DNA from: Isoetes taiwanensis
Taxonomy: Eukaryota > Streptophyta > Lycopodiopsida > Isoetales > Isoetaceae
Assembly (NCBI GenBank): GCA_021234155.1
Contig: JAJEKV010000011.1
Span: 20,290,677-20,354,676 of the forward strand
DNA length: 64,000 bases
Direction: 5' to 3'
Part shown: in pieces, positions 3,495 through 64,000 of the stretch
Position numbering within the stretch: position 1 is the first letter of the stretch
Layout: every line of letters begins with the position of its first letter
Notes under the pieces: model-generated
The model's database searches: none
Told to the model about the DNA's origin: nothing
What the model saw: only the letters and a program-made list of their open reading frames with translations
Position numbers and translations under genes: made by a program

Positions 3495-3498
3495 AGAA

Positions 3499-3744
3499 AC
3501 CAGACATCCCCAAGTGTGTAATGATAGAGTTGCTGGCCTCATTGACTCCCATCTCCTGTGTGATGATGTGCCGATGCAATTCCATGTCGAGAATGCAAGC
3601 AATGACTGTCTGTACCGCTTGATTAGGCGCAGGGCTAGGTATACGTCCATATCCGATGCTTGTTAGTTGTTGATACCATTGTATAGGATTGTTGGCCATT
3701 TCCATGTTACTGATAGGCTCAGTCTGGTGATAGTCCCCTCGTTC
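3499..3744 (-). pseudogene. ORF1 exon 2, N-terminal fragment (copy A)
   Basis: An open frame runs from the splice acceptor at 3,745-3,746 (TTCTATAG then GAACGAGG on the minus strand) through an internal ATG at 3,703-3,705, giving MEMANNPIQWYQQLTSIG and onwards, to the truncation at 3,499. The protein is the start of the ORF1 protein found in copies B and D. Here it is cut after about 80 residues, at a point corresponding to GMSGF. No function known; see the copy B entry for the full protein. Confidence 0.7.
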
Positions 3745-5429
3745 CTATAGAACAAAGTTCTTAGTAAATCATAGCCACGAATATTTTCTACCAACTATGG
3801 TAAAGCTAATTTACTCAAGATTCTTAATGACATGAACAGAAATGTAAAATGTGCAGAAGCAAGTGCCAACGACTGGGATATGGTAGGAATAAGATTTAAA
3901 CTTCATACTGGTTGAACCAGTAACCCGAAATCATAGAATATATATAGAGCCTGAGCCTAAACCATGCCCGAAGGCCAAGTTCAAGTCCAGACATCCAAAA
4001 CCAGTCCAGGATTTCCTGTGACATGGTCGGATTCATCGGTTCCTGTTTTTATACAAGGAGAACCTTAAATCATATTCCATCCCATTCCCATGCATTGACC
4101 ATAAAGTCTAAATAATTAGCTTATTACCAGCAAGCTTTAAACCTTAGTTCATAATCAGAACATACCTGTAGTATCCCATACATATTCTATAGGCCAGTAT
4201 CCATTTTTAAATCACTCTATACCTTCCTGTCAGATTTAGCTTTATTATCAAGTTCAAGTTCAGACATGCAAACTTTTGAATCATATTCATACCATTTCTA
4301 AACACTGAAGTTGTTTTCAAGACCATAGAACTTTCCTATTATATGCTTTTACTAATTATAGGCCTTTTCTGATCGATACATGTGAATATTATTTACTTTG
4401 TTTATTAGTTAACCAGAAACTATAAACTGCTTTAGTCCACCCAGATGGCTTAAGCATTACTTTGATCGAAGTCTACTTCAGATGACTCTGTTCATTCATT
4501 CAATTTTTTAACCATTCTTTAAACAGTAAAGCTTTACCTAAGTATTAAGATGAGCTGTGGTGGTACAGAAATCAGTCCTAGACATTTCATCATTTCCTTC
4601 AATTATCAGCAATATTTAACTAAAAAAAATATAACATATATATTCGAAATATTGTCTGCCAATACCATACATGCTTAAAAATATGTTTATGGATGCCAAA
4701 ATTCAAAAGATAAGTAGGGTGCTGTAAACTCCATACATAGATAGCATAGCTATATTTAAATCATGGTCTTTGAAAGTTACTTTGCGGATGGCTCTCGCAT
4801 TTGCAGCAAAAAAGATTGGGATAGTAGTATGACCTGAACATCTTGTACATTACCCTCATCTGATAATAATTAAGACTGCTAAGTCTGATAGCCAAAACTT
4901 GATTGAAAAAGGTTCTTTTGAAAAGTAGACATTCCTCTGAGTGTACTAATTCCCTTTGCTTATCCAACCTATGATAAAAGATAGAGTATGTAGATGAAAC
5001 ACCGGTTACCTGCAGCAAACATCCAACTATTAGCCAAAGAAGGGTAAAGCTGAACATGCTAGCAGGTAAGCAATGGTATTTCATGGCTTATCGCCCTTCA
5101 ACATATACAGAAACTTCAATCCATACAGAAATTTCAATTAACACAGAAATAGTCATTACAAAGGTTCAGAAGGATCACTTCCTGTTTACATGCAATCAGC
5201 CATATTCGTCCTCCACAGTTTTTGCTTGTATTTCATTGAAGTATAGGAGCTGTCCACTGGTGGTCAGATCTGAATGGCTAAATCCTCCAAAAATATTCCT
5301 AAATACGACTTATCTCTAAGTATACTCTACCATTTCCATATCAAGGTATTTGTGCAGATTTATCTAAGCCCTCCCCATATTTTTTTTATTGTATGATGCA
5401 TATAAATAAAATGAGAACTTCTAAGAAAC
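3745..5429 (-). other. Intron of the retroelement (copy A)
   Basis: This separates the SAP-like exon from ORF1. On the minus strand it starts GTTTCT after CAG at 5,430 and ends TTCTATAG at 3,745. It is AT-rich with stops in all frames except a 107-codon minus frame (4,761-5,084), which I take as chance. The differences from copy B (10,969-12,655) cluster at CAG/CTG sites. Confidence 0.6.
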
Positions 5430-6095
5430 CTGGTTAAGAGGGATTTCTCCATCAAGGGACTCGTCAACTTGACTTGTGTTGATGCCACTAACTGCTCCAG
5501 GGAATGTTTGATCCAGAGTTGTTGCTGCTGTCATCTTGCCCTTAGCCGTCTGATCCTGAAAGCTCAAAACTGCCTGCCTTTTTCCACAACCTTCTCTTTT
5601 CTTGGCATATATGTCAATCCCAGCTTTGATAGCCATTTGTTCCAGTTCAGATTTCTTCATATTAGCTCCATCATTCTTTCCAATAAAACTACAATCTACT
5701 CCAGCTTCCTTTAGCATTTCCAGAATATCCAACTTCGTTGGCTTTTTGTTGAGAGATCCTTCTGGTCTCGTCATTTCGTCACAGGGGGAAGCGCCAACAA
5801 GATTAGCGCCTTCAGCAAATTCTGCCCACTTCACTTCTGCTATAGTTAATTTACCAAAGGCCAGAGAAGGCGGACCACCCATTTTACAGATTATAAATAA
5901 GCAGAAGGCTTGCAAAATGATCACGTACCCGGCTCTTTCATGGCGCCAAAACAGAGTGGTTGTGATTTTAAGTTTCACAGCAGCTGTACCGTTGGAAATA
6001 CAGAGAGTATTATTGCCAAAACGGCTAGAACAGAGTACCTTGGATTCCTTAATCCATGCTAGATGTCGCCGTCCTTTGAAGATATCTTCCGCCAT
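5421..6095 (-). CDS. SAP-like exon 1 protein of the retroelement (copy A)
   Basis: The minus-strand frame starts MAEDIFKGRRHLAWIKESK and runs 224 residues. Its C-terminal half has two short helical segments resembling SAP motifs, around KPTKLDILEMLKEAGVD and MKKSELEQMAIKAGID. SAP domains bind AT-rich DNA, which would suit an element living in (TA)n. The frame ends at a stop a few codons past CAG|GT at 5,430. Splicing there would join it in phase to ORF1. Copy B has the same protein with four extra N-terminal residues (MAVA). The SAP call is by eye and uncertain; the middle (LFWRHERAGYVIILQAFCLF) looks hydrophobic or intronic. Confidence 0.55.
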   Translation of the reverse strand: MAEDIFKGRRHLAWIKESKVLCSSRFGNNTLCISNGTAAVKLKITTTLFWRHERAGYVIILQAFCLFIICKMGGPPSLAFGKLTIAEVKWAEFAEGANLVGASPCDEMTRPEGSLNKKPTKLDILEMLKEAGVDCSFIGKNDGANMKKSELEQMAIKAGIDIYAKKREGCGKRQAVLSFQDQTAKGKMTAATTLDQTFPGAVSGINTSQVDESLDGEIPLNQVS

Positions 6096-6785
6096 CGCAC
6101 TGCCACTGTAACCCTAGCTTCTTGCTTTGTGTATAGCTCTGTTGTTTCGGAACCCTAGTATACGATTATCTATCGACCCAAGATAGACATTGTTAGGTGC
6201 CTTTGAATAGCTATGCACCCCATGTCAATTTCAAAATCTTCCCTTGTGCGAAAGATTTAGTCAAGATATAAACCCTAGTAACGTGTTCATTAGAGCCATA
6301 GTCCTAATTATTCCGCCTTTATTTTCTTTATACATGCATAACAATATTACTACCTTCACCATAGAGAAAACCCCATAAGGGGAAATCGGTCAATTTGTTG
6401 CTAAGGGTTATTAACTTTAGTTGAGGCCATCCTATTTTTCTTTTTTAGTTTTTTAATTTAACAGTAAAATGTTCAATGGTCTTTATTTTCCATGCAAATT
6501 TATACTGTCCTAGCCTTGCGTGGTATAATGTTAGAATTCCATAACCATTACCCTCAATGCATATTACCTTATGTAGTAAGAGAATTCCATTACCATTGAC
6601 ATAGGACTATTAATCTACGTGGGGTAAAACAATTAGTATAAAGTGGCCAACAACAAGTTAAACCTATGGTCAATACTATTTCAATGGTTAAGTGTAGTAC
6701 CTTCAGTCCTGGTGTCCTAAAGAAGCCTTAGAACCTTAGATCATTTTTTGTTCTCCTTTTGTTCAACAAAACTAGTCAATCTTTT

Positions 6786-6787
<2 letters not shown>

Positions 6788-6833
<46 letters not shown>

Positions 6834-6842
6834 ATATATATA
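6788..6842. repeat. (TA)n tract joining copies A and B
   Basis: Mostly TA dinucleotides with a few TGTA variants. The 5' end of copy A is on its left and the 3' end of copy B on its right, with no other DNA between. Confidence 0.95.
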
Positions 6843-6849
6843 AATTTTG

Positions 6850-6939
6850 CCTACCTCCTCCCGGGAGGAAAGGTAGGTCCCTTATTATGAAATACAGGGA
6901 GGTGAGGGGTCCCTATATTTCATAGGGACCAACCTCACC
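6850..6939 (-). promoter_or_regulatory. Twin hairpins at the retroelement 3' end
   Basis: CCTACCTCCTCCCGGGAGG...AGGTAGG (6,850-6,877) forms one stem. GGTGAGG GGTCCCTATA...CATAGGGACC AA CCTCACC (6,901-6,939) forms a second, longer stem. TTATGAAATACAGGGA (about 6,884-6,900) can alternatively pair with TCCCTATATTTCATA, so two folds compete. The block is kept in copies C (15,866 on) and D (22,640 on). It is probably the RNA structure recognised by the RT at the 3' end; that role is inference. Confidence 0.7.
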
Positions 6940-6994
6940 ACCTGACTCATATTTTAACTATGAATTGTTTCTACTTTTCGTCATAAACTACAAT

Positions 6995-9206
6995 CTATTT
7001 AAGCCAGTGATAATTAATAAATTTGGGAGGAATGTCATACCTTAGTTTACGTAATTCTCTGATCATTGTGCTGATATCATATCGTAATCCTGGAAAGTCA
7101 TTATCTTTCAATGCTTTGTACAGGGTCCTCCAGACATCTTTAGCTTTAAAGCCTTTTAGAATGAAAGCCACAACTAGTTTTTTAAGATCTTCAGCAGCAG
7201 AAATTGGATTGCTGTGCACATATAAGTATGGTAGTACCTGCGAGATCAGCACGTTGCACGCCATAATGTATGGTCTACAGCTATTGGCGTGCACAAATTT
7301 AGTTGCAGTAAAAGGAAGCTTGTCACGCTTATCATATCTGTATGTGCAGTACGTTCGTGTTCCAGGTTTAAGATTTCTATGGTCATGTTAAGGAAATTAA
7401 CCTTTCTACCACTGCTACAATCAGCTCCTAAAACTGTCCAATACTCCGTTTCATCCTTGATCTTAAGGATGTTTAAGTCATAAATGCTTCTATCACTTTC
7501 CTTGCGGGAGATATTTCCAATGTTGAGATAATCCCTGATGAAGAAGCTGTTTATCCCAATCAGATCATCCATGTACCTACTAGTGTGTTTGAAAGAACTT
7601 GCTTCTAGGAATTTTTCTTCTTTACAGAGATCAATAACGAACTTAAGTTCAAAGAAGGCTAGATATAAATTGCACCAGGAAGGGCTGCACGGAAAGCCCA
7701 TAGGTATCCCCTTGACCTGTCTCCATATGCTACTTCCCATTTTAAGAAAACAGCATTTTATCAACCAATTATTGATGTTACAGAATTTAGAAAGGCTCAT
7801 CATGGTCCACTTCTTACCCTTGGGGTTTATTTTCTTCCAGGATATTACAACTGAATCATTAGGACCATATGAGTACCACATATTATTACTTTTGTTTACC
7901 CTCTTCTGGCTCGCCCAAACCATATTACATATTTCTTCCATAACATGGCATAACCCGTACACCCCCTTTATGGGAATGTTTTCATAGCATTTAGCTATAT
8001 CACAAACAAAAAGGTCATAAATCTTATTGGGGAGGTTAACTGCCAGATCGTATATTGAGTTGATTACCCAAGAGGCCTTAATCTCATACTGCCCTGAATA
8101 GTTAAATTCCACACATACGTCATTGCAGATTTTAGGCCATAAATCAAGTATAGTGTTCAGTCCTGCTGCCACAAGTGATGCTAAGTTAGAGAAAATGCTA
8201 TTATGTGCATTAGTAATCCACCTATATTCTTTCTTGTGGGCCTTATATATGCCGAGTAGATAGGGCAACTCCTTGCTGTTACTGTTGAATTCTCCCACAA
8301 GTGTGATGATGTCCATTCAATTTGTTCCACTACCTCTGTTTCAGTGAACTCAGTTTTTTCAAAATCCTCACTTTTCAGCCTCTTGTATGCCTCCTCCCTA
8401 ATATGCATAGGGCATATAAAGGAGGGATTGTTAGCAGCCTTATCTACTCCCGCTATGTAGAAATTGTTTTTGAGCCACTCAATATTCTTAACCACTTCCT
8501 CATCCTCTATAAGAAACTTAACCTTGTTCACTCTGTTCTTATTGACAGCTTCAATAGCTAGAATTTCGGATACCATCAGAATTTCCGCCTTGCATCTGTT
8601 AATAGTATCATTGTCAATGTTTGTAAGAGAAAATCTGTGTAGCCTGAAGAACTGCTCAATAGTATTTCTCAACTCTTTCTTAAACAGTTTAATAGTGAAT
8701 GGATGGTCTGGAATATGGTTAAGACCCTTACTAAACATATTTCTTAGTGCTGTATGATGCACAATATCAATATCAGTAGTTCTGATATGTCCTATGTCTT
8801 GATCAATAAATCTGGCCAAAGTGGGATTCCCACATGGGCATTTCATACTTTCATTCATGGCAAAGACCATCTTAGGTTTATAGAACATGGTCTTTAGATT
8901 GCCCACATATTTCCATCCAAATGTAGAGTCCTCATACATTTTTACTCCATTGTCCCCAAAATATTTGAGGAGCACTTGCTTAAAGACAGTAGTGAACTTA
9001 ATTCTCCCGACCATTTTAGAGAAGAAGGAAAAATGAATGTATTTTTTATTTTTATTTTCCTTCTCGCTTGCGAGAATCCAATCTCCATCCTCACCAAGTG
9101 TCAAAACTCTCTTTATCTGTGAGAAAAGTATAGTATTGTTGTCATGATCAAACTTGATCAGGAAAGTAATGCCTAGAAAGGCATTGGAGTATGCGTGTAC
9201 GATATG
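6995..9206 (-). pseudogene. Reverse transcriptase of Penelope-like type (copy B)
   Basis: Minus-strand frame opening after TAG at 9,207-9,209. The N-terminal part has CPCGNP and GHIRTTDIDIV, then GVDKAANNPSF. The RT core has KAHKKEYRWI (motif 2 region), [13 protein letters not shown] (motif A Asp), [16 protein letters not shown] (motif B), YMDD (motif C) and FLNMTIEI. The first in-frame ATG lies well inside, so the start is probably supplied by splicing or an N-terminal extension. One base is missing near 8,316 and others near 7,350 and 7,300 compared with copy D, giving apparent frameshifts. No GIY-YIG endonuclease motif is visible at either end. It would copy element RNA into DNA at the insertion site. 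Confidence 0.8.
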
Positions 9207-9327
9207 CTATCCCCCCCTTTTTTTAAAAAAAACTTTTTTGAAAAAACAGTAATTAAAACATATTTACTAAAGTAGAACAACTGTATTACTTGAAATCAAA
9301 AACAAGAATATTTGTGTCATTAGAAAC
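9207..9327 (-). other. ORF1-RT junction, possible small intron
   Basis: GTAAGT (9,326-9,331) overlaps the ORF1 stop codon, and TTTTCTCACAG (ending 9,118) lies inside the RT N-terminus. A G-run/A-run homopolymer patch sits between them. These look like splice sites, but with the bases as given the phases do not agree: the GTAAGT donor is phase 2 and the acceptor phase 0. Either another donor is used, the RT is translated separately, or the sequence has an error. Confidence 0.4.
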
Positions 9328-10968
9328 TTACTTCACAAGGTCAAAAGTAACAGGTGACGTTGCGTAATTCTTTTTTCCGGTTGCCCCGCTTACTTTGTTG
9401 ACAGACCAGTCATCATTGATACTGCTATCATCCAGGTTAATGACATCCGTTCCATAGACTTCGGTTGTTTTAGCAGGTGTGACTTCCGGCCTCCTATAGA
9501 CCTTAGGTGGCATAATTATAGATCCATCCGGGCTGTCAGGTTCACTGTACCTTTTCCTGCTCCCACTGTTGCAGTTATCATTATTACTGTTGTTGCCCAC
9601 ATTGTTGTACTCCTGCTGTTTACTCATCAAATACTTGATTGGTTTGACTGTCTTCTCCAATATGTCAGTCAGTTTTGTTCCTCCAAACTCCGTGCTCAAA
9701 TCACAATTGGGGTTATCAGCAAATTTTATGGTCATTTTCACCAAAGTATCCCTAACCCTGAGGTAGCCTAGTAGGGCCAAAATAGCATTCTTGAAAGGTT
9801 TAGTAGATAATACCGATGAAAAAAATGCAAACCTGACAGGAATAGCATGGTCTGGCCATGCCTTCTCCAAGTTGTTCATTAAATACCATATTGCGTGATC
9901 CAGCCATATAATTGTATCTGGGCATTCACCATTTTCCTTAGCAATCTTGTCACATTTGCATTTGATGAATGGACAAAAAGTCCTCCACATTTTTTTGATA
10001 TAAAACTCATGCCTCCTTTCATCAACTCTAGCTTGATGTCCTTTCTGACCAATAAATACCTGCTTGCTGTTGCTGCATTCAAGTCCGAGACATTTTGCAG
10101 CAAAAGGTAGTGTAACCTCTAGCTTATCAACACTTCGAATGAAGTTATCAGCATTATTGTAGGCCTCATTCAGTTCATTGTCATTGATGGAGGCTAGGCC
10201 TTTCCATGCTTCCAAACTAATTGGTGCCAGAACTCCGAGATTTTTACTTTTCCATAAGGCTTGTTTGTACTGGCTACCATGTGCTTCAACTTCTCTAGGT
10301 GTCATGATAGGGAACCTTCCAATTAAAAGTTCAAAGATATTTATTGGTAGTTTATCTTCCTCAGCCTCAATCCTAGGGATAGGAACCTCCTCCTGTACCA
10401 TGCCAAATGCTGCCTTTTGCTCTTCAGTGAGCATATTTATGTTAAACAGACAGTTTGAAATGTTGGCATTTTGTACTACACGATTTTGTGCAGTCGGGTA
10501 CACTTTGGCTCTCTTTGAAGCTGCAGTTGAAGGGAAGGTGTATTTTACTCCATTGGCCCTTTCGAGGGCTGTGAGACATTTGACAAAGATGCGCAAATTA
10601 GCGGTTTCCCTTTCAGTTGAGTTGAACTGTACCATGGACAGTCGACTGTATACTGCATAATGAGTTCTTTGCAAGTCTCTATGTTGTATCCATTCTTCAT
10701 AAAATTTGATACCAATGATAAGAAACCAGACATCCCCAAGTGTGTAATGATAGAGTTGCTGGTCTCATTGACTCCCATCTCCCGTGTGATGATGTGCCGA
10801 TGCAATTCCATGTCGAGAATGCAAGCAATGACCGCATGCAGCTTGATTAGGCGCAGGGCTAGGTATACGTCCATATCCGATGCTTGTTAGTTGTTGATAC
10901 CATTGTATAGGATTGTTGGCCATTTCCATGTTACTGATAGGCTCAGTCTGGTGATAGTCCCCTCGTTC
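9328..10968 (-). pseudogene. ORF1 protein of the retroelement (copy B)
   Basis: Second exon of the retroelement's first gene. The open frame continues upstream of the internal ATG (10,927-10,929) to a splice acceptor at 10,969. The last 448 codons are uninterrupted. A cysteine cluster, C-x4-C-x-C-x9-C within MWRTFCPFIKCKCDKI and the next dozen residues (about residues 234-251 of that stretch), is followed by IIWLDHAIWYLMNNL. A diverged relative at 63,418 keeps the same cysteines and W-D-I-W pattern, so the domain is under selection; zinc binding is a guess. The C-terminus is Asn/Ser-rich with a basic GSRKRYSE patch. Frameshifts near 10,658 and 10,835 relative to copy D sit at CTG/CAG-like sites. 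Confidence 0.75.
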
Positions 10969-12655
10969 CTATAGAACAAAGTTCTTAGTAAATCATAGCC
11001 ACGAATATTTTCTACCAACTATGGTAAAGCTAATTTACTCAAGATTCTTAATGACATGAACGTAAATGTAAAATGTCGCGAAGCAAGTGCCAACGACCGG
11101 GATATGGTAGGAATAAGATTTAAACTTCATCTTTGGTTGAACCAAGTAACCCGAAATCACGGAGAATATATATAGAGCCTGAGCCTAAACCATGCCCGAA
11201 GGCCAAGTTCAAGTCCAGACATCCAAAACCAGTCCAGGATTTCCTGTGACATGGTCGGATTTATCGGTTCCTGTTTTTATACAAGGAGAACCTTAAATCA
11301 TATTCCATCCCATTCCCATGCATTGACCATAAAGTCTAAATAATTAGCTTATTACCAAAGAAGCTTTAAACCTTAGTTCATAATCAAACATACCACCTAG
11401 TATCCCATACATATTCTATAGGCCAAGATCCATTTTAAATCACTCTATACCTTCTGTCGATTTAGCTTTATTATCAAGTTCAAGTTCAGACATGCAAACT
11501 TTTGAATCATATTCATACCATTTCTAAACACTGAAGTTGTTTTCAAGACCATAGAACTTTCCTATTATATGCTTTTACTAATTATAGGCCTTTTCTGATC
11601 GATACATGTGAATATTATTTACTTTGTTTATTAGTTAACCAGAAACTATAAACTGCTTTAGTCCACCCAGATGGCTTAAGCATTACTTTGATCGAAGTCT
11701 ACTTCAGATGACTCTGTTCATTCATTCAATTTTTTAACCATTCTTTAAACAGTAAAGCTTTACCTAAGTATTAAGATGAGCTGTGGTGGTACAGAAATCA
11801 GTCCTAGACATTTCATCATTTCCTTCAATTATCAGCAATATTTAACTAAAAAAATATAACATATATATTCAAATATTGTTATGCCAATACCATACATGCT
11901 TAAAAATATGTTTATGGATGCCAAAATTCAAAAGATAAGTAGGGTGTCTTTGTAAACTCCATACATAGATAGCATAGCTATATTTAAATCATGGTCTTTG
12001 AAAGTTACTTTGCGGATGGCTCTCGATTTGCGACAAAAAAAGATTGGGATAGTAGTATGACCTGAACATCTTGTACATTACCCTCATCGATAATAATTAA
12101 GACTGCTAAGTCTGATAGCCAAAACTTGATTGAAAAAGGTTCTTTTGAAAAGTAGACATTCCTCTGAGTGTACTAATTCCCTTTGCTTATCCAACCTATG
12201 ATAAAAGATAGAGTATGTAGATGAAACAGGTTACTGCGCAAAAAACATCCAACTATTAGCCAAAGAAGGGTAAAGCTGAACATGCTAGCAGGTAAGCAAT
12301 GGTATTTCATGGCTTATCGCCCTTCAACATATACAGAAACTTCAATCCATACAGAAATTTCAATTAACACAGAAATAGTCATTACAAAGGTTCAGAAGGA
12401 TCACTTCCTGTTTACATGCAATCAGCCATATTCGTCCTCCACGGTTTTGCTTGTATTTCATTGAAGTATAGGAGCTGTCCACTGGTGGTCAGATCTGAAT
12501 GGCTAAATCCTCCAAAAATATTCCTAAATACGACTTATCTCTAAGTATACTCTACCATTTCCATATCAAGGTATTTGTGCAGATTTATCTAAGCCCTCCC
12601 CATATTTTTTTTTATTGTATGATGCATATAAATAGAATGAGAACTTCTAAGAAAC
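10969..12655 (-). other. Intron of the retroelement (copy B)
   Basis: Minus-strand donor CAG|GTTTCT at 12,655 and acceptor TTCTATAG|GAACGAGG at 10,969. The reading phase is 0 at both sides, so the SAP-like exon reads directly into ORF1. Intron retention in genomic copies is known for Penelope-like elements and unlike ordinary processed retroposition. Confidence 0.6.
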
Positions 12656-13333
12656 CTGGTTAAGAGGGATTTCTCCATCAAGGGACTCGTCAACTTGACT
12701 TGTGTTGATGCCACTAACTGCTCCAGGGAATGTTTGATCCAGAGTTGTTGCTGCTGTCATCTTGCCCTTAGCCGTCTGATCCTGAAAGCTCAAAACTGCC
12801 TGCCTTTTTCCACAACCTTCTCTTTTCTTGGCATATATGTCAATCCCAGCTTTGATAGCCATTTGTTCCAGTTCAGATTTCTTCATATTAGCTCCATCAT
12901 TCTTTCCAATAAAACTACAATCTACTCCAGCTTCCTTTAGCATTTCCAGAATATCCAACTTCGTTGGCTTTTTGTTGAGAGATCCTTCTGGTCTCGTCAT
13001 TTCGTCACAGGGGGAAGCGCCAACAAGATTAGCGCCTTCAGCAAATTCTGCCCACTTCACTTCTGCTATAGTTAATTTACCAAAGGCCAGAGAAGGCGGA
13101 CCACCCATTTTACAGATTATAAATAAGCAGAAGGCTTGCAAAATGATCACGTACCCGGCTCTTTCATGGCGCCAAAACAGAGTGGTTGTGATTTTAAGTT
13201 TCACAGCAGCTGTACCGTTGGAAATACAGAGAGTATTATTGCCAAAACGGCTAGAACAGAGTACCTTGGATTCCTTAATCCATGCTAGATGTCGCCGTCC
13301 TTTGAAGATATCTTCCGCCATCGCTACTGCCAC
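12647..13333 (-). CDS. SAP-like exon 1 protein of the retroelement (copy B)
   Basis: 228 residues, MAVAMAEDIFKGRRH to IPLNQVS. It is identical to the copy A protein except for the extra MAVA start, which copy A loses through a one-base difference near 6,096. The two SAP-like helix-turn stretches (around KPTKLDILEML and MKKSELEQM) lie about 50 residues before the Lys/Arg-rich CGKRQ segment. The predicted exon ends at 12,656 (CAG); the VS-stop tail would be intronic if splicing occurs. DNA binding is inferred only. Confidence 0.55.
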   Translation of the reverse strand: MAVAMAEDIFKGRRHLAWIKESKVLCSSRFGNNTLCISNGTAAVKLKITTTLFWRHERAGYVIILQAFCLFIICKMGGPPSLAFGKLTIAEVKWAEFAEGANLVGASPCDEMTRPEGSLNKKPTKLDILEMLKEAGVDCSFIGKNDGANMKKSELEQMAIKAGIDIYAKKREGCGKRQAVLSFQDQTAKGKMTAATTLDQTFPGAVSGINTSQVDESLDGEIPLNQVS

Positions 13334-14012: not shown

Positions 14013-14052
14013 ATATATATATATATATATATATATATCAGTTATATATATA
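14013..14052. repeat. (TA)n tract
   Basis: Divides the 5' end of copy B from the cassette that follows; interrupted by CAG at about 14,039. Confidence 0.85.
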
Positions 14053-15766: not shown

Positions 15767-15849
<83 letters not shown>

Positions 15850-15857
15850 ATATATAT
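15767..15857. repeat. (TA)n tract
   Basis: About 90 bp of TA with two TGTA variants. It joins cassette 1 to the 3' end of retroelement copy C. Confidence 0.95.
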
Positions 15858-17281
<1,424 letters not shown>

Positions 17282-38200: not shown

Positions 38201-38210
38201 AATTGACCTT

Positions 38211-43590: not shown

Positions 43591-43624
43591 ATTAGCCTAA
43601 TTTGCAATTAATAGGAAATTCATC

Positions 43625-45001: not shown

Positions 45002-45010
45002 TATATATAT
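45002..45010. repeat. Minimal TA joint between cassettes 5 and 6
   Basis: Only TATATATAT separates the terminus of one cassette from the 5' module of the next. Confidence 0.7.

Positions 45011-53393: not shown

Positions 53394-53395
<2 letters not shown>

Positions 53396-53457
<62 letters not shown>
53396..53457. repeat. (TA)n tract
   Basis: Pure TA, about 60 bp, between cassettes 6 and 7. Confidence 0.95.
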
Positions 53458-53459
<2 letters not shown>

Positions 53460-55210
53460 TAATATATATACACGTATTAGATGTGTGTTTTGTCATCCCA
53501 TGCCCATGTTCATAGAGATTCATCCCAGCCGTCCAATCACGAAATGAAAGGCCAGGATAATGCCACCTCATTGAGGTGCATGGATGGGCATGCATGGAGG
53601 CATGCACCACATCCCCAAACCGTTGGATCAAAACGGGAGAATAAATCCTAGCCCTTGATTTTTGTGAAGAAGGTGCAAGGAAGGTGCCAAAAAAAAAAAA
53701 GTTGGTGCAGCAGATCTCAACCGTTAGATTAAAAGGTGAGCATAAATCCTAGCCATTAACTTTTTAATATTAAATTGATTTTTTTCTTTTAAAGGAGGTG
53801 AGGTGGCACCCTCATTAATAAAAAGGCACCCTCATTAATAAAAAAGGTAGTGAGGTGGCAAAGTATTTATGAATGGACTTTCTGGGAAGCTTCCTTCTGT
53901 TTAATCGTCTTCGAAGGCCCGTAGCTTGCAGTAGAGTGGTCGGATGAAGGTGGGTCCTACGCCGTTGGATTCCTCTCGTCGAGACCTTTCTAAGGAGTGG
54001 TGCTTTGGCACTATTTTGTCGCATTTGGAGCCAGCGTGATCGATGTGTGATTTTGTCATCCCATGGGTCATATTCATAGAGATTGATCCTAGCCAAAAAT
54101 GACAAAATCAAGGGTTGTTATAATTCCACCTCGTGTGATGCATGGATGGGCACGATGTGCACATGCATACATATGCACATACATGCATGGGCCATGCATG
54201 CACCATGCACATGGGCCGTTAGATGGGGGAAGGTGAAATCTGGATCGTTCAAACTATAAGAGAGGAAGGTGACAAGAAGTTCCTATGCATGTGGTTAGGT
54301 GGCATACATGTGCATGCAAGCATTTATTGTAATCATGAGGTGTTAGTTGAGGTGGCATGTGCATTTATTTGCCACCATATCTTATCTATATTTAATATAT
54401 AGATTTTGAGGTGGCATTGAAATTAATTTATGCATTTTTTGCCTTTTAATATAGAATATAAAAATCTTAATGTGAAACGTGGCAAGCCATATCTTGCTTT
54501 CTTTTCAAGTTTTCTTTCAAACTTGAACCATGAGGACGAGCTTGATGTAACTACATGGCAACATTTTTTGCCTTTTATTATAGAAAAACCTTAATGTGGA
54601 ACGTGGCAAAGCTATATTTTGCTTTCTTTTCATGTTTTCTTTCGATCTTTAACCATGAGGACGAGCTTGATGTCATGTGAACTACGTGGCAACCTATTTG
54701 GTTTTCCTTCCAACACCTTTTTTTTTTTTTTTTTCTAAACTAAGGGCCTAGAATCTTTGGAAAATTATTCCTCTCCTTCTTCTCTACAAAGTTCTCGCCA
54801 AGACTCCATGAGCCCCCGCTAAAACTCTCAAGACTAGGGGAATCTTCATAGAGTCTAAGCGAATCTAAGGAACCTTGGGAGAATCTATGGGAACATAGGG
54901 GAATCTTATGAGAATCCTGGGGTATTCTTAAGGAACCTTAGGGAATCTAAGGGGATATAGGGGAATCTTAAGGGAATCTAGGGATTCTTAAACAAATTCA
55001 TGTGAATCCCTGTAGAATAATGTGGAATCTTTGTAGGATCTTAGGAAATCCAAGAGAAACTTTGTAGAATTTTAGGGAATCTACGAGAAATGCACAGAGA
55101 TCTAGGAATGTTTTTAGAATATTGGACAGTCTTAATAGAATGTTGGCAAAACTTGGGTTATACTTTCTAATGTGCGTACATTCGACTTCATACACTCCCT
55201 CATGGTACAA
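53458..55210 (+). mobile_element. TA-bounded cassette 7 (no cargo)
   Basis: The 5' module includes GGGCATGCATGGAGGCATGC, AAACCGTTGGATCAAAACG and a 25-bp duplication (GGCACCCTCATTAATAAAAA, twice near 53,805-53,845). 54,436-54,700 is a tandem repeat of about 127 bp (GAGGACGAGCTTGATGT in each unit). GAATCT words run from 54,840 to 55,110. The end is ACACTCCCTCATGGTACAA at 55,192-55,210. Close relative of cassette 1. Confidence 0.7.
54436..54700. repeat. Tandem repeat, about 127 bp per unit, two units
   Basis: Both units carry TTTTTTGCCTTTTA, CTTAATGTG, AACGTGGCAA, TTGCTTTCTTTTCA and CCATGAGGACGAGCTTGATG. Lies inside cassette 7. Confidence 0.8.
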
Positions 55211-55624
55211 ATATATATATATCTATTATATATCCCTTATATCATTATATATCTGTTATATATATACAATTATATAAGCTGCCCCCTTATACATAGACGC
55301 CGAGGTGTCGCCGTCTGGGCCGTCCAGATTTGAGATCCGACGGTCCTAGGGTAGCCACCTCAATTCATCATAAGCACCCCCCTTATAATGGTGTGGTGTC
55401 ACCGTCTTGACCGTTCTTTAAGATCGACGGCCCAAACGAAGCCACCTCGTGATGCCCCAAGCAGCCCCCTTATTTGGGGCTTTTGATTTAGGCCCTCGGA
55501 TTTAAAGATTTAATCTTGGCCGTCAATAAAATTAAAGCCCCTAAAGGAACACATTTAATTGTGACATGACATGTCTTTAATTTTTTTAGGACGTGTCAAA
55601 AAACTTTAAAGAAGGCGAGCGCCG

Positions 55625-55791
55625 TAAATATCGGACACTGACATGTTATACCCAGCCTTAAATGGCAAAAAATCGGCTAAGTCCACAAAAACGCCGTGTA
55701 TTTTTTTTGGGCGTGGCTATAACATGTCAAACACACGGATATACCACGGATATGCCCGTGGGTATAACATGTCAGTGTCCGATATTTACTG
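55625..55791. repeat. Inverted repeat, about 30-bp arms
   Basis: TAAATATCGGACACTGACAT followed by GTTATACCCA (from about 55,625) pairs with TGGGTATAACATGTCAGTGT followed by CCGATATTTA (about 55,759-55,788). The spacer of about 105 bp contains a second TATAACATGTCA copy in the arm-2 orientation. It resembles a small foldback transposon. Confidence 0.8.
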
Positions 55792-56679
55792 GCGCTTCTA
55801 AGGCGAGCTAAGTAAAGAAGGCGGCAAGGCACCCCACGGGTGGCACTCCCAAGGTCCATTCCATTGGAGGAAAAAAGAAAAAAAAAAGGGGCCTGCTTTC
55901 CTCGATTGTTTCAAAGCGTAGAATGAGAATGGAACCGATCACTGGCGGCCGGATCTTCTAAGCTTGGTTCGCCGGACTATTATCTCCTGATTCTCTTAGG
56001 AGATTCCACTCCATAAGACAATGAGCATGGCGTAGCCGGATTTGAGAAGCAAAGATTGCATTTCGATGGTCGGCATCCTATGCCACAATTTTTATTCTTG
56101 AAACGAAATTTCCTATGCTCCATTATTGCAAATTTGGTCGCGTGTTCATCCCATATGTGACCGTGTACTTCGAATTTCCCTTCTTTTTCATCCCCGTGGT
56201 TTCAAAGGCAAATACGGTTCCCTCAAAGTCGAAAAAGCAGCCCTTAGCAAAAAAGGTATTCCTAGGTTTCTTCATGATCCATCGGGTTCTCGAATTTCTG
56301 ACTAATTACCTTACATTATCCGGATGATGCCCCTTCAAAAGTGTTAGCAGCTAAAAGGTGTTAGCGCCTAGTGCGGATGGCCAAGCATTTCGGTGAGATC
56401 CGGACATCTTTGCAGCTCCACGGGGAATGATGGTATCTATTATGTATATTTACTTGCATAAGATCCATGCTTCTTATGTGTCGCGACTTCTAATAAGAAT
56501 GCTCCTTTGGCCAATATCTCGATGTGACTCTGCCGAAGTTTTGTGTGTCATTGCCTTCATCCGTGGTGGAAGCCGGTGAGTAGATAACTGAGTATCCGGG
56601 CCAGAGTCCTAAGGTGGAAGTCTGAATTTCTTAGGAGGAGAGAAAGCTTACCTCCTCGCAGCCTATTTATTCTGCTTTT

Positions 56680-57570
56680 CAATATTAGTGACGCAGCTTA
56701 AAAGATGAGGTGCGCAGAGGAAAATCTCTTGGCAAGAAAATTGATGATAAGTCTAAAGGCCTCTCTCAAAGCTCTAATAAAGCCGAGGAGAGCTTTGCCC
56801 TGATTTCAAAATGGATCAAAAGGTGGTAAGAAGAAGAAGAAGGGAAAACAGTTGTAGATCCATCTTTCCTTGGTTTTTATGTCACAGTAACCGGATAATG
56901 ATGAGAGAAATACTACGAAGTTGAAGACCGAGGGTTACAAAGATGTCAACCGATATTTCTCATCTTAACATAGATTTTGTGTTTGCTATAAAATACGTAA
57001 ATGTAAACTTTTCCCCGCAAATGGAATTGTGCCTTTCGAGTGTAATATTTGAGTCCGTGGTAAGTGGTTGTGACGTTCCGAGCTAACTTCATTGTATCAT
57101 GGAACTTGTTGATCAATGAAGCAATGCCGCCATCTTGTATTGTTTGACCATCGCCTACGTGTCACACGATTAAAAATTGGGGCGCTAGAAACAATTTATC
57201 GTGGTGCCACAAAAAAAGATATGCGCACTCGCAGATAAGATCTACAACTTTTGAATTATTAACTCGATTTTGTCGCCCTGTGGTTTTGACAAAGAACAAA
57301 AGCCGTGGCCCCTTATCTACAAGTCCGCTTAGACCCAACATCCAAGTCTGCGCCAAAAGGCAATAGTGAATCTATTGAAGCAATTGCAAAAAAAGGGGAG
57401 CTCGATTATGGGGAAAAGGCCTCGAGTCTCACGATCCGTGCGGTCAAGCAGCACCCGGATACCCGCTTTCCGGGGACATCCAAAAATTGCGCAATGGCAT
57501 ACGAGCAAGCGCTGAAAGATTTAATTACCGAGGCACCAAAATTAGAAGTCCAAGGATCAGCTTGAGCGTA
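56680..57570 (+). pseudogene. Coding-like cargo, product unrecognised
   Basis: A lysine-rich stretch near 56,702-56,829 (KSLGKKIDDKSKGLSQSSNK) and an 86-codon frame at 57,305-57,565 (MAPYLQVRLDPTSKSAPKGN) look like protein-coding fragments. No family recognised and no clear splice links. Confidence 0.25.
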
Positions 57571-57639
57571 ATAGAAATATTGAAGGCATTAAAAATGTAA
57601 AATCTAAGGTGATCATTTTCATTCCAGTTTCATGGGCAA

Positions 57640-59150
57640 ATGGGGAAAAGGTTTATTGTTGATTCTGTCTATGAGACCATTAATGTTTCGCTTTATAAGA
57701 GGTCAAGGCTTTTGTTTCTTTTTCGGGCTCCATCACGTGAAAAATCACGACCACTTGCTCGAGCAACCACTTCAAGACGGACAAGCACTCCAAGATTCCT
57801 TCACCCAAAAGAGTCCATTGGGTGACAAATCACGAGCACTTGCTCGAAAGCAAGCACTTCAAGATTGCCTTCCCATTTGGTTAAAGATACAGGGAAGACC
57901 GCACTCCAAGGCAATAAAGTGAAGGTATCTCTCGGCAAATAGAGATGATCTAGCCACCCTTCTTGCCGAGGTGCGCTTTGGTATGCAAGAATTTGTCCAC
58001 TTGAATCATTTTGTAATGGAATAGCTAATCTTTTGCAAACTTATCTGTTGAAGCATAACCGCACAAGCATGAACCCGCACTTCATCCGCAAAGGAAACTC
58101 AAATAGAAAGTAGTCAACTAGTTTACAACAATAAGAGGGGCTGAATTTTTTCTCGCCGTCTCCGAAGGTAAGGCTAAGATGGAAATGCCTACTCATAATT
58201 TGAAGGCCAATAAAGGAACAAAGGGCTCGAGGACATCCAAAAATACAAAGGTCGCCTTGGTTATTGTCTAGATGATATAGCATCTCGATTGTCTTAGCTT
58301 ACCGTTGACAAGGATTTTACGACAAAGCAAAGAATGGCATGCTTATAATACTTGATTCAAGCCCAAGCAAAACGCATTTTCTCGTACATGTAAAAAGTAC
58401 AAAATGGATTTATAGAGATTACTCGCTTGTGCAATCTAGCAACGGAACATATTTTTATAGCCGGCAACTTAGAATCAATGAATGAATGCGGAAATGTGTC
58501 ACATTAAAAAAGTTTGGGAGTTTCTTGGGTTGCTACACGATTTGTTTTTAAGCGAAGATTCATTAAGCCATTTAGCCTTGAACGTGAGAAACAAGAGAAG
58601 GCAAGGCATCTATCTCGTTTGTAGCTGCATGAATTCAAGAACATTGTATGTTCCAATTTGGATTTGCTTTGCTCCATGTTCCAATTTGGATTTGCTTTGC
58701 TCCTGCTTTAATAAGTTATTACTCATGTGCATGAGTTTGGATAACTTGGATTCCATAAAAGCAAGGCAATCAACCTTCACCCCTCATCTAATTCTAATAA
58801 TGTAGGTTATTTTGGGTGGCTCTGGGACTTACCATGTTGGAATACCAAATTCAAGGATGAAATAAACATCACATCCACAGGAGTTTGGCTATTGCAAAAG
58901 TTCACCATTAACTTCTGCAAGTCATGATGTAAAACATTCTTCTGAATACAATTAAATCTCCTCATTGTGTTCATTGGTATCAATTCGGCCGCTATGCCGG
59001 ACAAATAGATCAAGAATACTATTCCTGTTTCGACCCGCTTTTGGAGGAAAGAATTGCTATTTTAAATCATACCATTTGGGCACCCTTGCCCTTTTGAGTT
59101 TTATATGCCACTTGCATTGATTGTAAAGTCATTACAGGCTTCGCCAATAC
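57640..59150. other. Cargo with short tandem repeats, no gene recognised
   Basis: CACTTGCTCGAxxAACCACTTCAAGA-type phrases recur near 57,770, 57,800 and 57,850. ATGTTCCAATTTGGATTTGC is tandemly repeated at about 58,647-58,704. Open frames (for example 58,482-58,805) do not resemble known proteins. Confidence 0.4.
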
Positions 59151-59648
59151 CAAAGTCTTATACCCATTTTGTTTTAGGAAAAATTACCAAAGTCCCCTAT
59201 ATTTTTCAAAAGTTACAACATTGCCTCTTAAATGAAGGGCATTTTAGGTAATATAGTAATATAATTTTTGCAGCTCATCAAATGCAAAAGTTGTCTTCAC
59301 AATAGTTGTAAACCATGATAGAATCTTCCCAACAAGTTCAAACTTATCTAAATTAGAGTTGAAATTCACAAGTTATGCTCTTTTGAGCTGTTTTTAAAAT
59401 CCATATTTAAAGCACCATAACTTGAAGATTCCAACTCCGTTTTAGATGATTCTACCGCCTTGGACATATCTCACTATTACTTTTATGTTTTGTGAAAACC
59501 ATTTTTATGTTTGATCAGTCACAAAGAAGTTATTATCATAATGTAGCCAAACTCAACATTTCTAAGGGTATTTTGGTAATTTTGGCGAGATATAGGGGCA
59601 TTTTGTAATTTTCCCTTTGTTTTATCCCGTTGATAGTACAAAAACTTG

Positions 59649-59682
59649 TATATATATATATATATATATATAAATATATATA
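59649..59682. repeat. (TA)n tract
   Basis: TA tract with one TAAATA variant, between cassette 8 and the second retroelement family. Confidence 0.9.
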
Positions 59683-61130
59683 ATAGGCTGTGGCTGGCTG
59701 AAACACAAGAGCTAGATACAGCATGCGGAGGCCAAGATGATTTGAGAAGTCTTGAACTCCCACAACATATGCTCATAACACTAGAGCTATGTACTATCTA
59801 GAGCTCTTTGCATAGCTCTCAGATATGTCACTGAACTACTAATAGCTCTAGAATAGTGAGTACTCCTAATGTACGCCATAATACTTGTCAGCAGGAACGG
59901 ATTTATCCTTTGAAAAATTGGCAAGGATTTGAATTGGCAAGAAATTGGATTATGGGAACTATAGTGGCAATAGTGCTACAATAGTGGCAAAATATAAAAT
60001 GCCAACCCTTTACAATTTTCGGTGATTGATGGAATCATTGCTTGGAGGGGTTGATCTACAAAAAGCCTATAAGCATGTGTAACAATGGGGTATATCGCTT
60101 TATATTGCATATATTGTGCTTAGAAGAAGGCAAAACATTCCTTTTATTTGTGATAAGACATTGGCTTATGCTTATAAGATAAGGCAATGGCTAGAAATGA
60201 GCCACTTGGATTCTTTGCATGCATGCAATATGCATGCTTTACTTTTGAAAAAAGAAAGAAAGAAATGCTTTCTTATCTATATAGGTACCTTCTAGCCCAC
60301 GTTTCTTGTTAACGTGATTCAAAAGGGCAAAGAGCATTTTTATTATATACCAAGGAGCATTATTGGACCATGGCATTAAATGGTGCGTCTTTAAACCTTC
60401 AAATTTGCCGTATGATATTATTTGGTTGTGTAGGGACACAAAAATCCTTACTACATAAGGTTTCGAAAGTGACATTTAGAATACATGTGCATAATATGCA
60501 CAGTGGCATTTGGAATACATGTGAAGCAAAAATATTGCCAATGGATGGAAAATCTATATGCCTATGCAAATACAAATTTATCCTTTTTAGGGTACACGTC
60601 TGAGGCTTTGCTCAACGGCGCCAGAGTGGTCGCCCAAAAGGGCTAAGCCATTTCGATTTTGAAATCGAGGCAAGGTCAGCTACAGATTCGCCGGCATACA
60701 CAGACTAGAAATCGATGTGCTATTCACAATCCAAAACAGACCGATTTGGCTTATACTGTGGACGATTTGGCTTATACAGACCTAAAATGCATTTTCGGAT
60801 TTGCCATCTGGTGGATTCTGGGAACAAACTCCCCATGAGCTTGGTCGGCAGAGTTTGGTTCTTGATCCGGATTCTGCAAAAAATGAAGGTGGAACTTGCC
60901 GATTTGCTCTAAGAAGCAGTTATTACCATGGATTTGCTCTGATTTGGAGCTTTACAGGTATTTTTTTACTCTGGCATTAATAGCTAAGATAGAAATCATG
61001 TTTGTTACAGCCATATCATAACAGCATATGGTGGCTCTATTTGGCTTTATTGTGCTTATTCTGATACAAGTTTCTTATACAAGCTATTTTGAGTTTTCAG
61101 AATCAATGATGTTTTATTCCATACAGGATA

Positions 61131-61308
61131 TAAATCTGAAACCTGACCTCCAGGCATTGACTGTTAAATAAGTTGCTGAAGCAGCTCATAATTTTGTTGA
61201 TGGTATATGCCTATCCGAAAATAAGCGGGCTGGAGCAACTTTGATTTACTCCAGTACCTACTGCACAAAGGGAGCTTCAGAGATATTTATGGAGCGCATC
61301 TTTAACAG
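61131..61308 (+). pseudogene. Exon-like piece with splice sites, product unrecognised
   Basis: Bounded by TTCCATACAG at 61,130 and AACAG|GTCTTT at about 61,308. The frame reads DINLKPDLQALTVK, stop, VAEAAHNFVDGICLSENKRA then GATLIYSSTYCTKGASEIFM. One in-frame TAA interrupts an otherwise convincing exon. I cannot name the gene. It lies inside the second retroelement family's copy 1, which suggests captured host DNA. Confidence 0.4.
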
Positions 61309-63000
61309 GTCTTTTGACATTTAGATTTCATTCTTATACTGCCTTAGCACGAAAATAAATGTTTAAATGGTGTCACATATTCAAAATCTGCTGGTTCTTA
61401 TGAAATACTAGTGGGAACGCCTTTCTTTGAGGCATTATATAATAGGCCAGCTTAGCATACTATCTTTATTGATGTCAGTTTCAAACAAGGGGACATGTTT
61501 CCTCAATATTCATGTTTATGTCTTCCTTGATGCTATAGTCTCCATATAGTCTCCAGGTTTCTTCTTATTCCTTTGATATCGAACTGGAAAAATACAATCG
61601 CATATCTGATTTAATCTTGAATAGAAAGATGCCTCTATATTCTTTAATTATTTGCTTATGATTCTAAATAGCTTATGTTTGCTTATTGGCCATAAATTGT
61701 TTATGTCCAGTTCTTTAGCATGTTCATCATAATGCTAATTCGGCTACATGATGCTCTTTAGCTTCTTAGTGCTGCTAAAGTATGGCTATACCTCACTACG
61801 ATCATGTGGCTTTTGCTTAATATCTTGATACAGTATTATAGCAAGAATGGCAGTTATAAAATGGATTTAAATGCTAGAATCCGTTGTTTCTCATCTCAAG
61901 TTTTAGATTTGAGAAAACTTCAAGTTATAATTCCATTTCTCTTTCTTGTTTATGCTAACTCAGGGCAAAAGGATACAATTGGCGATCAGTGATAAACTGA
62001 GAGACCCAATGTACCTTTTGGCCCTTGCATCGTTACCGGGATTACTGCTAACATTTGCATGATTGGCTGCAGGTACGGGTTCTCTCCTCCAATTGTCTCC
62101 AATTTGATTCCTAGGTTGTCGTTTACATGAAAGAAGTTGGAATTTCATCACAAATGGAACATTGACATTGACAATGATCTAGATCAACCAAGACATAAAT
62201 ACTGCTTTGACTATAAAGGGAAGTTATTGTACACTTTTCACTTGCAAAGTCTAGTATGTACTTTCTATATTAAAGAAATATTTATAAAACGAAAATATTG
62301 AAATATCTGGTCGTATTTAGAACATGTGTTACTTTCATGTGGGACTCTTGTGGACTAGAGCCTGGGTAGTGCCAGGACAGACTCTCTCTAGCTTCGGTCA
62401 AGTGACCAAGTTAGTAGTAGTAAGTCTTTGCTAGATTAGATCCTAGTGAAAAGATAGAGTATATATGCTGAAACTTCTGTTTTCATGTTCTAGGACATGA
62501 GACTCTATCCTCTTGAGTCCACATGAATAGACTATGATTAGACTGTTCACAATACACATCTCATGATTGCTTCCGTATTTTGGGACTTAGGAAACTAGTC
62601 CTCTTGTACAGGGACATGAAATGAGATATCCTTTAAGATAATACCCCTATGACAGCACTCTTGAACTGATTTATTAATGTATATCTCTTGAACTATTTTT
62701 TTGAACGTATATCTCATGATTGCATATGTACTTTGGGGCTTAGGAAACTAGTTCTCATGTACAAGTGGATGAAAGAGATGACCCGAGAACCTACTCTTCT
62801 CATGATTACTTCTCTACTTTTACTTCTGATATTGATTGTTTGCTACTCATTGACTTGCACTTTATGTAGATGACTTAGTTGCGGCCACAGAAGGATGACA
62901 AAATTCTATGGTTCAGGAAAATAAAAATATTGGGCTTCTTGAAACTCTGTCAAGACCATTAAGGTATGAATATCAATTATATACTTTATCTTTCAAATTT
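61309..63000. other. Interior of copy 1 with no recognisable gene
   Basis: AT-rich, intron-like. 62,475-62,800 has two diverged repeats around CATGAGACTCTATCCTCTTG, GGGxCTTAGGAAACTAGT and TCTCATGATTGC. No RT or ORF1 homology seen. Confidence 0.4.
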
Positions 63001-63118
63001 TATTTACTTACAGGTAATGTAGGGTCCTAGCATAAATGCTAGGTACCCTATGTTACCTAGCATTACACATGCTAAATTTGCATTTAGGACTCTACTTCCT
63101 GCGGTAGGAGGTAGGTGC

Positions 63119-63148
63119 TATATATATATATAAATATAAATATATATA
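63119..63148. repeat. TA-rich joint between the two family 2 copies
   Basis: Short TA tract with TAAATA variants. The 3' end of copy 1 lies left and the 5' end of copy 2 right, so the copies are head to tail, as in family 1. Confidence 0.85.
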
Positions 63149-64000
63149 ATAGGCTGTGGCTGGCTGAAACACAAGAGCTAGATACAGCATGCGGAGGCCA
63201 AGATGATTTGAGAAGTCTTGAACTCCCACAACATATGCTCATAACACTAGAGCTATGTACTATCTAGAGCTCTTTGCATAGCTCTCAGATATGTCACTGA
63301 ACTACTAATAGCTCTAGAATAGTGAGTACTCCTAATGTACGCCATAATACTTGTCAGCAGGAACGGATTTATCCTTTGAAAAATTGGCAAGGATTTGAAT
63401 TGGCAAGAAATTGGATTATGGGAACTATAGTGGGAAAAATTTGGAGGTCTTTTTGCCCATACTTCAAATGTGCATGTGACATGCTGCCAAAAGGAGGAGG
63501 GTGTGGAGAAAACATCACCTGGTTTGATCAGGGAATCTGGTTTATACTAAATAATCTAGATACTGTCTTTCCAGAGCAGGGTTGCATTGAGGGTTTCTTA
63601 ACATTGGTCAAGCTGCTGTCCAATAATTTGAAAAAGGTGGTTTATGCCATGTTGGCATACTTACATTTCAGAAAAACAATCTATGAAATGGCCATGGAAT
63701 ATGGCAAGGATGCAAGGATTGATGTGTACAAAAAGTTTGGTAATAATCATATGATTCTGATTGCAGACATGATGCTGAGGCCAGCAGATTATGCTGATAA
63801 AAAATCCACTGGAAAAGGCAAACCTCCTCGAAAACAAAGCCAAAAAAGGAGAAGCTATAACTTTGTTTCCTCTGACGCTTTGTCTAAAAGCTTTTATCCA
63901 CCTCGCATGTTCTACCGTGGCTCCGGAGATAAGGAAGAGGGGAGTACATCCAATATTACGTCTGCTTCTACTTCTACAGGTAATATTACTCCAGCTGGGA
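63149..64000 (+). mobile_element. Second retroelement family, copy 2 (cut by window end)
   Basis: Starts with the 285-bp 5' segment shared with copy 1 (AATAGGCTGTGGCTGGCTG...), then runs into a long open frame homologous to ORF1 of the minus-strand family. The RT should lie beyond the window. Confidence 0.75.
63301..64000 (+). CDS. ORF1-like protein of the second family (partial)
   Basis: Open from 63,301 (after TGA at 63,298-63,300) to the window edge, 233 codons without a stop; the first in-frame ATG after the 5' segment is at 63,418. VGKIWRSFCPYFKCACDML aligns with KKMWRTFCPFIKCKCDKI of copies B and D. ENITWFDQGIWFILNNLD aligns with DTIIWLDHAIWYLMNNLE. The cysteines (C-x4-C-x-C-x8-C) and the W-D-I-W-NNL pattern are conserved while most other residues differ, so both proteins evolved under constraint. 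The tail is basic (GKGKPPRKQSQKRRS), and PPRMFYRG matches PPKVYRR of family 1. The frame is intact as far as it can be seen. Confidence 0.75.

Follow-up and report, generated by a model that had tools for sequence, protein, structure and literature searches.

A putative Penelope-like retroelement and gene-carrying cassettes share TA microsatellite joints in the genome of Isoetes taiwanensis

Introduction

Chains of mobile elements held together by TA microsatellites have been described as SaTar arrays, which are, according to the sections of two reports that deal with them (PMC5907723, PMC4486113), modular, non-nested chains of unrelated elements that are joined by (TA)n and recur in the genome. 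The elements taken here for comparison are SaTar (guayule, rice), MuTAnT (Medicago), TAFT (maize) and Micron (rice). Long chains are also formed by endonuclease-deficient Penelope-like elements (Athena, terminons; Selaginella, conifers), for which priming on exposed DNA 3' ends has been proposed in the parts of the literature consulted (PMC3846280, PMC12477314, PMC9033089), at telomeres or breaks (PMC3846280), and in the Penelope-like element of Anolis reverse transcription starts inside the element RNA in vitro, which explains its tails (relevant section of PMC11167929). In this work we analyze a stretch of 64,000 bp of the Isoetes taiwanensis genome, from here on the window (C919:20,290,677-20,354,676, at 20.29 Mb on a contig of 24.35 Mb), in which copies of a retroelement and large gene-carrying cassettes follow each other end to end with (TA)n tracts at their joints.

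A preliminary description of the window considered that this organisation may be undescribed; SaTar arrays, however, are already published (section on arrays in PMC5907723), and therefore a (TA)n-joined organisation is not new. What is new, as far as our searches go, is a Penelope-like element which uses (TA)n and is mixed with large gene-carrying cassettes. No paper linking Penelope-like elements with TA microsatellites was found in the open-access literature, a search that did not cover Craig 2021 and Lin 2016. For microsatellite-specific retroelements lacking long terminal repeats (LTRs), the portions of the open-access literature that were accessible turned up only work on U2 targets. Craig 2021 may reportedly include microsatellite targeting by other Penelope-like clades.

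Results

The window contains 19 alternating TA runs of at least 10 bp (10-138 bp), every one of which lies at the border of a unit, while 50 runs of an order-1 Markov model of the window gave a mean of 0.48 such runs and a maximum of three. Borders were placed without the use of TA as well, from the self-BLAST ends of the retroelement copies, a conserved right-end motif of the cassettes and repeated left ends (35103 = 45003 and 59653 = 63119 in self-BLAST), and there are no N's in the window. A naive p-value was set aside, since some of the borders behind it had been picked by TA. All 12 of the TA joints named in the preliminary description exist, and its view that boundaries between units are TA tracts holds well. 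The chain is made up of four copies of the retroelement (A to D, all on the minus strand), eight cassettes, one mixed unit (unit 9) and, from 63119, a second retroelement family (Table 1). As exceptions, the left edge of the chain at 3,495 has no TA, the joint at 33,700, in the middle of a 1,395-bp cassette duplicated in tandem (32305-35095, 98.9%), has no long TA run, and copy D has an internal deletion. The left edge adjoins a palindrome of 243 bp (3252-3494; 88.6% BLAST identity to its reverse complement), next to the 3'-truncated end of copy A. That no unique host DNA is left between the units is plausible and is not demonstrated, because the cassettes are full of host-like sequence such as CBM53 pieces.

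Genome-wide searches covered 1,110 contigs (1,658,258,908 bases), with a set of 110 loci. An exact 27-nt motif of the retroelement 3' end had 18 matches (reversed control, 0), and in all 18 a TA tract follows the 3' end in the sense of the element. Fifteen of them are tandem joints running into the 5' end of another unit; here the TA segment, which is 35-61 bp long including an A/T linker and is interrupted by GTATAT, is similar across diverged families, and judging from this sequence conservation it is a part of the element and not fresh target. The other three 3' ends (copies C and D, and C817:31.9 kb) are non-tandem and all adjoin the right end of a cassette, a variant one at C817:31.9 kb. 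A 5'-end motif had 37 matches (control, 0), 26 of which lie in 11 arrays of two to five units spaced by 6.98-7.27 kb and 11 of which are single; the larger number of 5' ends means that 3' ends with motif variants were missed. Tandem and partial-tandem copies (pseudo-LTRs) are thus found, in head-to-tail arrays of units of ~7.1 kb. As the 5'-end motif includes ATATATA it is uninformative on the frequency of TA, and we read instead the flanks of seven outer 5' ends (window B and D; L044, L048, L050, L053, L055), whose choice was independent of TA since they were fetched by position from the genome matches: all seven have (TA)n. Copy C is truncated at its 5' side within the unit, yet 147 bp of (TA)n are present there, and TA is therefore a target and not merely a piece of the element. 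The expectation of the preliminary description that over 90% of family members have TA on both sides stands for the retroelement at 3' ends (18/18) and at outer 5' ends (7/7), and fails at tail ends (2/5).

The last unit of an array may consist of its 5' part only, giving a partial downstream copy or "tail". Five tails were resolved (window copy A, C1057, C996:1.46 Mb, C1019 and C996:13.65 Mb), those at C360, C925 and C174 being unresolved. Two of the five, at C1057 (L006) and C996:1.46 Mb (L109), end at the identical internal site GGCTC-TATATATA, beyond which there are 109 bp of TA, or ~28 bp of TA-rich sequence, and then other sequence. All eight of the other copies compared (B, A, D, L002, L005, L007, L008 and L059) read through this site into element sequence, and these include L002 and L005, the full units upstream of the two tails in question.

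The 3' end appears to be structured. Alignment of 19 3' ends (18 from the loci, and that of unit 9) gave a predicted consensus of 30 pairs, with a branched stem and a last hairpin immediately before the TA segment; five of the 30 pairs are changed on both sides, two of these in 6 and 10 rows, and the row of unit 9 disrupts many consensus pairs. Single-sequence folds of the ends of copy B and unit 9 have two main hairpins each, the last one beside the TA, with z-scores of -5.2 and -6.9, respectively, and -2.6 for a control stretch within unit 9. The single fold of copy B and the consensus have the last hairpin in common but disagree on the larger stem, so that the exact fold is tentative. Unit 9 (59649-63118) has a 5' end of 315 bp in common with the second retroelement family (99.7% identity in self-BLAST), an unrelated interior and a structured 3' end resembling that of the retroelement; the shared 5' end next to unrelated sequence gives it the look of a non-autonomous element carried by the retroelement. 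The second family is linked to the first by homologous open reading frames (ORFs; Table 1).

The reverse transcriptase (RT) of copy B lies at the 3' side of the unit (RVT_1, E 8.5e-5, below the Pfam cut-off), and RVT_1 was matched by all ten RT rows searched against Pfam at E up to 1. The 18 copies compared are 58-100% similar to one another in their last 1.5 kb, except for L068 (44-51% to all others). In six copies the RT frame is free of stops over 462-487 codons, and the ratio of nonsynonymous to synonymous divergence (dN/dS) is 0.055-0.083 in six of the 15 pairs, dS not being computable in the other nine; the RT is under purifying selection. For the GIY-YIG endonuclease there was no Pfam match in the four main ORFs of copy B at E up to 1, nor any motif in the sense frames of copy B, L059 (most of the unit) and L002 (part of the unit), and these scans recognised no other endonuclease, although an unfamiliar one may lie in the upstream ORFs. 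Hammerhead ribozymes, which are frequent but not universal in Penelope-like elements, gave no Rfam match at gathering scores in the window and no match in a core-motif scan. Loose Rfam matches at the two ends of copy B (26 and 5), none of them to the hammerhead, scored far under the gathering thresholds and were regarded as chance. Tandem TTTAGGG or TTAGGG was absent from the 110 loci and the window, and tblastn found no relatives of the RT in viral contigs. The retroelement is probably Penelope-like, with an RT for which no endonuclease was detected. At L045:505-1374, inverted beside the array on C1018, there is an ORF belonging to yet another, diverged family of retroelement RT.

The cassettes have ATAGTACAAADACTTG at the right end and TATATATACAAWTATAT or variants at the left. 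A 16-nt right-end motif had 1,687 matches in the genome (22 for the reversed control), 1,183 of which are directly followed by TATATATA, and one left-end type had 644 (control, 1). Among the first 100 right ends listed of the 1,687, 80 are strict, with TATATATA directly after, and 16 of the other 20 also have a TA run, four being without; a TA run of at least 7 bp within 40 nt is therefore present at 96 of the 100, against 3.2% (window) and 1.9% (C11) of random 40-nt stretches, and the frequency above 90% that had been foreseen is borne out for cassettes on the right side, the one covered here. Nineteen of these same 100 ends have a second catalogued end opposite them at no more than 400 bp (13 left and 6 right), where random placement on the same contigs gave a mean of 0.8 and a maximum of five, and six of 61 left ends face another left end. 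It should be noted that these counts are lower bounds, because other end types were left uncatalogued. Catalogued ends hence meet right to left, right to right and left to left, and the tightest joints hold 8 bp of TA only. Together with the three non-tandem retroelement 3' ends, all at cassette right ends, this recurrent linkage upholds the proposal that both classes sit at (TA)n and that the TA of one unit is used by another. The further idea that every insertion supplies new TA target is correct in that TA is reused across units, but not for 15 of the 18 3' joints, whose TA belongs to the element.

In a 50-kb stretch of C11, chosen for its richness in right ends, all five TA tracts with runs of at least 10 bp are at cassette joints, and among the cargo of the cassettes are a PPR ORF and a kinase piece; in a scan of the cargo ORFs of the cassettes of C11 and the window, six of ten had no family. 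Cassette 6 contains two pieces of the starch-binding domain CBM53 (within 48390-50580), presumably from starch synthase III. Provided that no border was missed, cassettes are ~1.6-14 kb in size. The inverted similarity of their ends is short (CAAKT-type), the ends being otherwise unlike by eye. The right-end motif terminates in ACTTG, not in the CTRR which in Helitrons follows a hairpin at the 3' end, and Helitrons encode a Rep/Hel protein. Domains of Mutator-like elements (MULEs) are common in the genome (1,020 candidates, 150 of them scored). No link to a MULE as driver of the cassettes emerged: the seven scored MULE places on C2-C136 lie away from the right ends that make up the first 100 of the 1,687, which is a weak argument.

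Discussion

With somewhat better than even confidence, we favor an account in which the chain consists of two independent mobile classes which both insert at TA microsatellites, the first being primed by (TA)n ends on its own RNA. As both would enter TA microsatellites they would pile up end to end, and as each carries TA along it would offer sites to the other. Class 1 would be a Penelope-like retroelement with TA segments at the unit border and within its 5' half. Its RT would extend a 3' end in a genomic (TA)n tract, supplied by a nick, a break or an opened cruciform ((TA)n forms breakable cruciforms), after this end had base-paired to a UA stretch in the RNA of the element, so that an endonuclease of its own would not be needed and may well be lacking. 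Pairing at the UA tract of the unit border would lead to a plain insertion and pairing at the internal UA stretch to an insertion with a tail, while the 5' side would close on the remaining (TA)n and read-through RNA of tandem units would maintain the head-to-tail form. The account predicts a shared internal stop at TATATATA, as in two of the tails. Class 2 would be a family of (TA)n-targeted, gene-carrying cassettes behaving like SaTar or TAFT, with an enzyme which we infer to be independent of that of class 1.

A number of observations weigh against this account. Three of the five tails have no TA end: that of window copy A stops ~445 bp past the internal site, at the palindrome, that on C1019 (L110) ~19 bp before it, and at C996:13.65 Mb (L060) the last copy ceases to match at B position 8653. 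Either these tails suffered later deletion or the priming account is incomplete. No empty site was seen, and TA lengths are unreliable, the published I. taiwanensis assembly being Nanopore-based (assembly section of PMC8566536). Wherever a score is given, the RVT_1 matches are below the curated cut-off, and five of the ten RT rows match Lipase_2 about equally well (best E 5.1e-5), which is taken as chance. A search for relatives of the RT in the PDB gave one chance match and a profile search none, and an AlphaFold model of a single RT was discarded (pLDDT 32). The Penelope-like placement of the RT thus draws on structure and on motifs, which we take to resemble those of Penelope RT. As to the cassettes, no transposase is tied to them, and none of the 150 scored MULE domains was linked to cassette ends.

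Both classes resemble described systems in part. Like SaTars and MULEs, the cassettes have (TA)n flanks and form modular arrays, and by their behavior they would be elements of the SaTar/TAFT/MuTAnT type, membership among Mutator-like elements being suggested by behavior only. SaTars and MULEs have terminal inverted repeats (TIRs), and target site duplications of 8-11 bp in copies outside microsatellites. The cassettes differ in that they have short inverted similarity only, carry gene pieces, share joints with a retroelement and are larger, the SaTars of guayule being DNA elements of ~0.4-1.7 kb with TIRs of 40-250 bp in the descriptions consulted. The retroelement shares with Athena and the terminons an RT without detected endonuclease and long chains; those elements, however, are found at telomeres with telomeric repeats, whereas here the chain is interstitial, at (TA)n. 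The tandem and partial-tandem form and the tail recall the GIY-YIG elements Penelope and Poseidon, from which the retroelement differs in that no GIY-YIG was found and in the internal stop of two tails at a target-like TA stretch.

The TA tracts could alternatively be products and not targets, if short TA ends of both classes were expanded by polymerase slippage after insertion, as has been proposed for TAFT of maize (as told in a section of PMC5907723). This would fit the TA segment of the tandem joints, which is a conserved retroelement part, and the mere 8 bp of TA in the tightest cassette joints. We nevertheless regard it as unlikely, since copy C has no TA end of its own at its truncation and since the ends of separate cassettes share one tract far above chance. 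It is less likely still that the units inserted elsewhere and were joined afterwards, through recombination between TA tracts or through break repair at them: these tracts are prone to recombination, and right-right and left-left joints do exist, but insertion fits better with the orderly units, which are mostly without interruption, and with two tails using one internal site of the element.

The single (TA)n-specific insertion system put forward in the preliminary description is unsupported, because the two classes have different ends and different coding content, with no sign of an enzyme common to both. With the cassettes as non-autonomous passengers of the retroelement RT, such a system could draw on unit 9, which combines the 5' end of the second family and a retroelement-like structured 3' end around unrelated sequence, and on the host genes with introns carried by rotifer Penelope elements (in the part consulted of PMC3846280); the right and left ends of the other cassettes are unlike those of the retroelement, however, and we think this improbable. 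Assembly misjoins at microsatellites are the least credible explanation and can almost be dismissed. Long (TA)n is hard to assemble, and the more so in a Nanopore-based assembly, but several joints have only 8 bp of TA, the tandem joints contain a conserved interrupted sequence and the same right end enters TA at more than 1,000 places.

Microsatellite priming by class 1 may be seen in a wider frame, in which a telomerase-related retroelement without endonuclease would have swapped the telomere for the TA microsatellite, with two start sites on its RNA, interstitial terminon-like chains and a niche shared with gene-capturing cassettes, each providing landing sites for the other; we judge this reading possible, at slightly less than an even chance. 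If true, microsatellite ends would serve a telomerase-related retroelement as ready-made primers and allow it to persist far from the ends of chromosomes with no endonuclease; the two tails stopping at one internal TATATATA are a precise and testable signature of it. The (TA)n-joined arrays would be extended from small DNA transposons to retroelements and large gene-carrying cassettes, and cassette chains would be a route by which a lycophyte genome may gather gene pieces.

Features of the Window

Table 1. Units, joints and coding features of the chain (positions within the window).
Feature	Position	Strand	Remarks
Copy A, 5' part of unit (tail)	3495-6787	-	97.7% to 10721-14073; 3'-truncated at 3495 (= copy B position 10721)
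Tandem joint B/A	6788-6842		TA segment with GTATAT interruptions
Copy B, full retroelement unit	6843-14012	-	~7.2 kb
Predicted structured 3' end of copy B (RNA)	6846-6950	-	beside TA segment; z -5.2
RT ORF, 356 aa	7246-8316	-	RT continues in another frame to 6995
ORF preceding the RT and running into it	8181-9206	-	no Pfam family above cut-off
ORF, 478 aa	9328-10764	-	homologous to ORF at 63301: 32% identity, E 6e-26
Internal site GGCTC-TATATATA (element sense)	11166-11174	-	two tails elsewhere end here
5'-proximal ORF, 248 aa	12647-13393	-	no Pfam family
TA tract bounding copy B at its outer 5' side	14013-14052
Cassette 1	14053-15766	+	GAATCT arrays, no recognised cargo; variant right end 15751-15766
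(TA)n, cassette 1 right end / copy C 3' end	15767-15858
Copy C, 5'-truncated retroelement	15859-17134	-
(TA)n at 5'-truncated end of copy C	17135-17281
Cassette 2	17282-22593	+	right-end motif 22578-22593
TA joint, cassette 2 / copy D 3' end	22594-22633
Copy D, both ends kept	22634-27998	-	internal deletion (without B 11242-13044)
TA tract bounding copy D at its outer 5' side	27999-28023
Cassette 3	28024-32084	+	right-end motif 32069-32084
(TA)n joint between two facing cassette right ends	32085-32224
Cassette 4, inverted	32225-35095	-	contains tandem duplication of 1,395 bp, 98.9%
TA-rich joint, cassettes 4 / 5	35096-35123
Cassette 5	35124-45001	+	9.9 kb; right-end motif 44986-45001
TA joint, cassettes 5 / 6	45002-45023
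Cassette 6	45024-53395	+	CBM53 pieces 48390-48722 and 50329-50580; right-end motif 53380-53395
(TA)n joint, cassettes 6 / 7	53396-53470
Cassette 7	53471-55210	+
TA-rich joint, cassettes 7 / 8	55211-55266
Cassette 8	55267-59648	+	right-end motif 59633-59648
Unit 9 including left TA tract	59649-63118	+
Second retroelement family including left TA tract	63119-64000	+	cut by window end; ORF 63301-63999

Some minor features of the window accompany these units. To the left of the chain, positions 1364-2650 are occupied by degenerate arrays of AATCATTTA-type units, which are very AT-rich and have no alternating TA runs of 10 bp. Cassette 5 contains a direct repeat of 487 bp (38211-38697 and 38974-39460, 98.4%). 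The right halves of cassettes (e.g., 14640-15700) hold long degenerate arrays of GAATCTAGGGGAATCTT-like units, which are possibly protein-binding subterminal repeats. At many left ends (e.g., 45002-45023) the TA tract has a short break of the form C-N-N-T(T/A) (TATATCNNTTATATATATACAATT), and other left ends have an unbroken tract.

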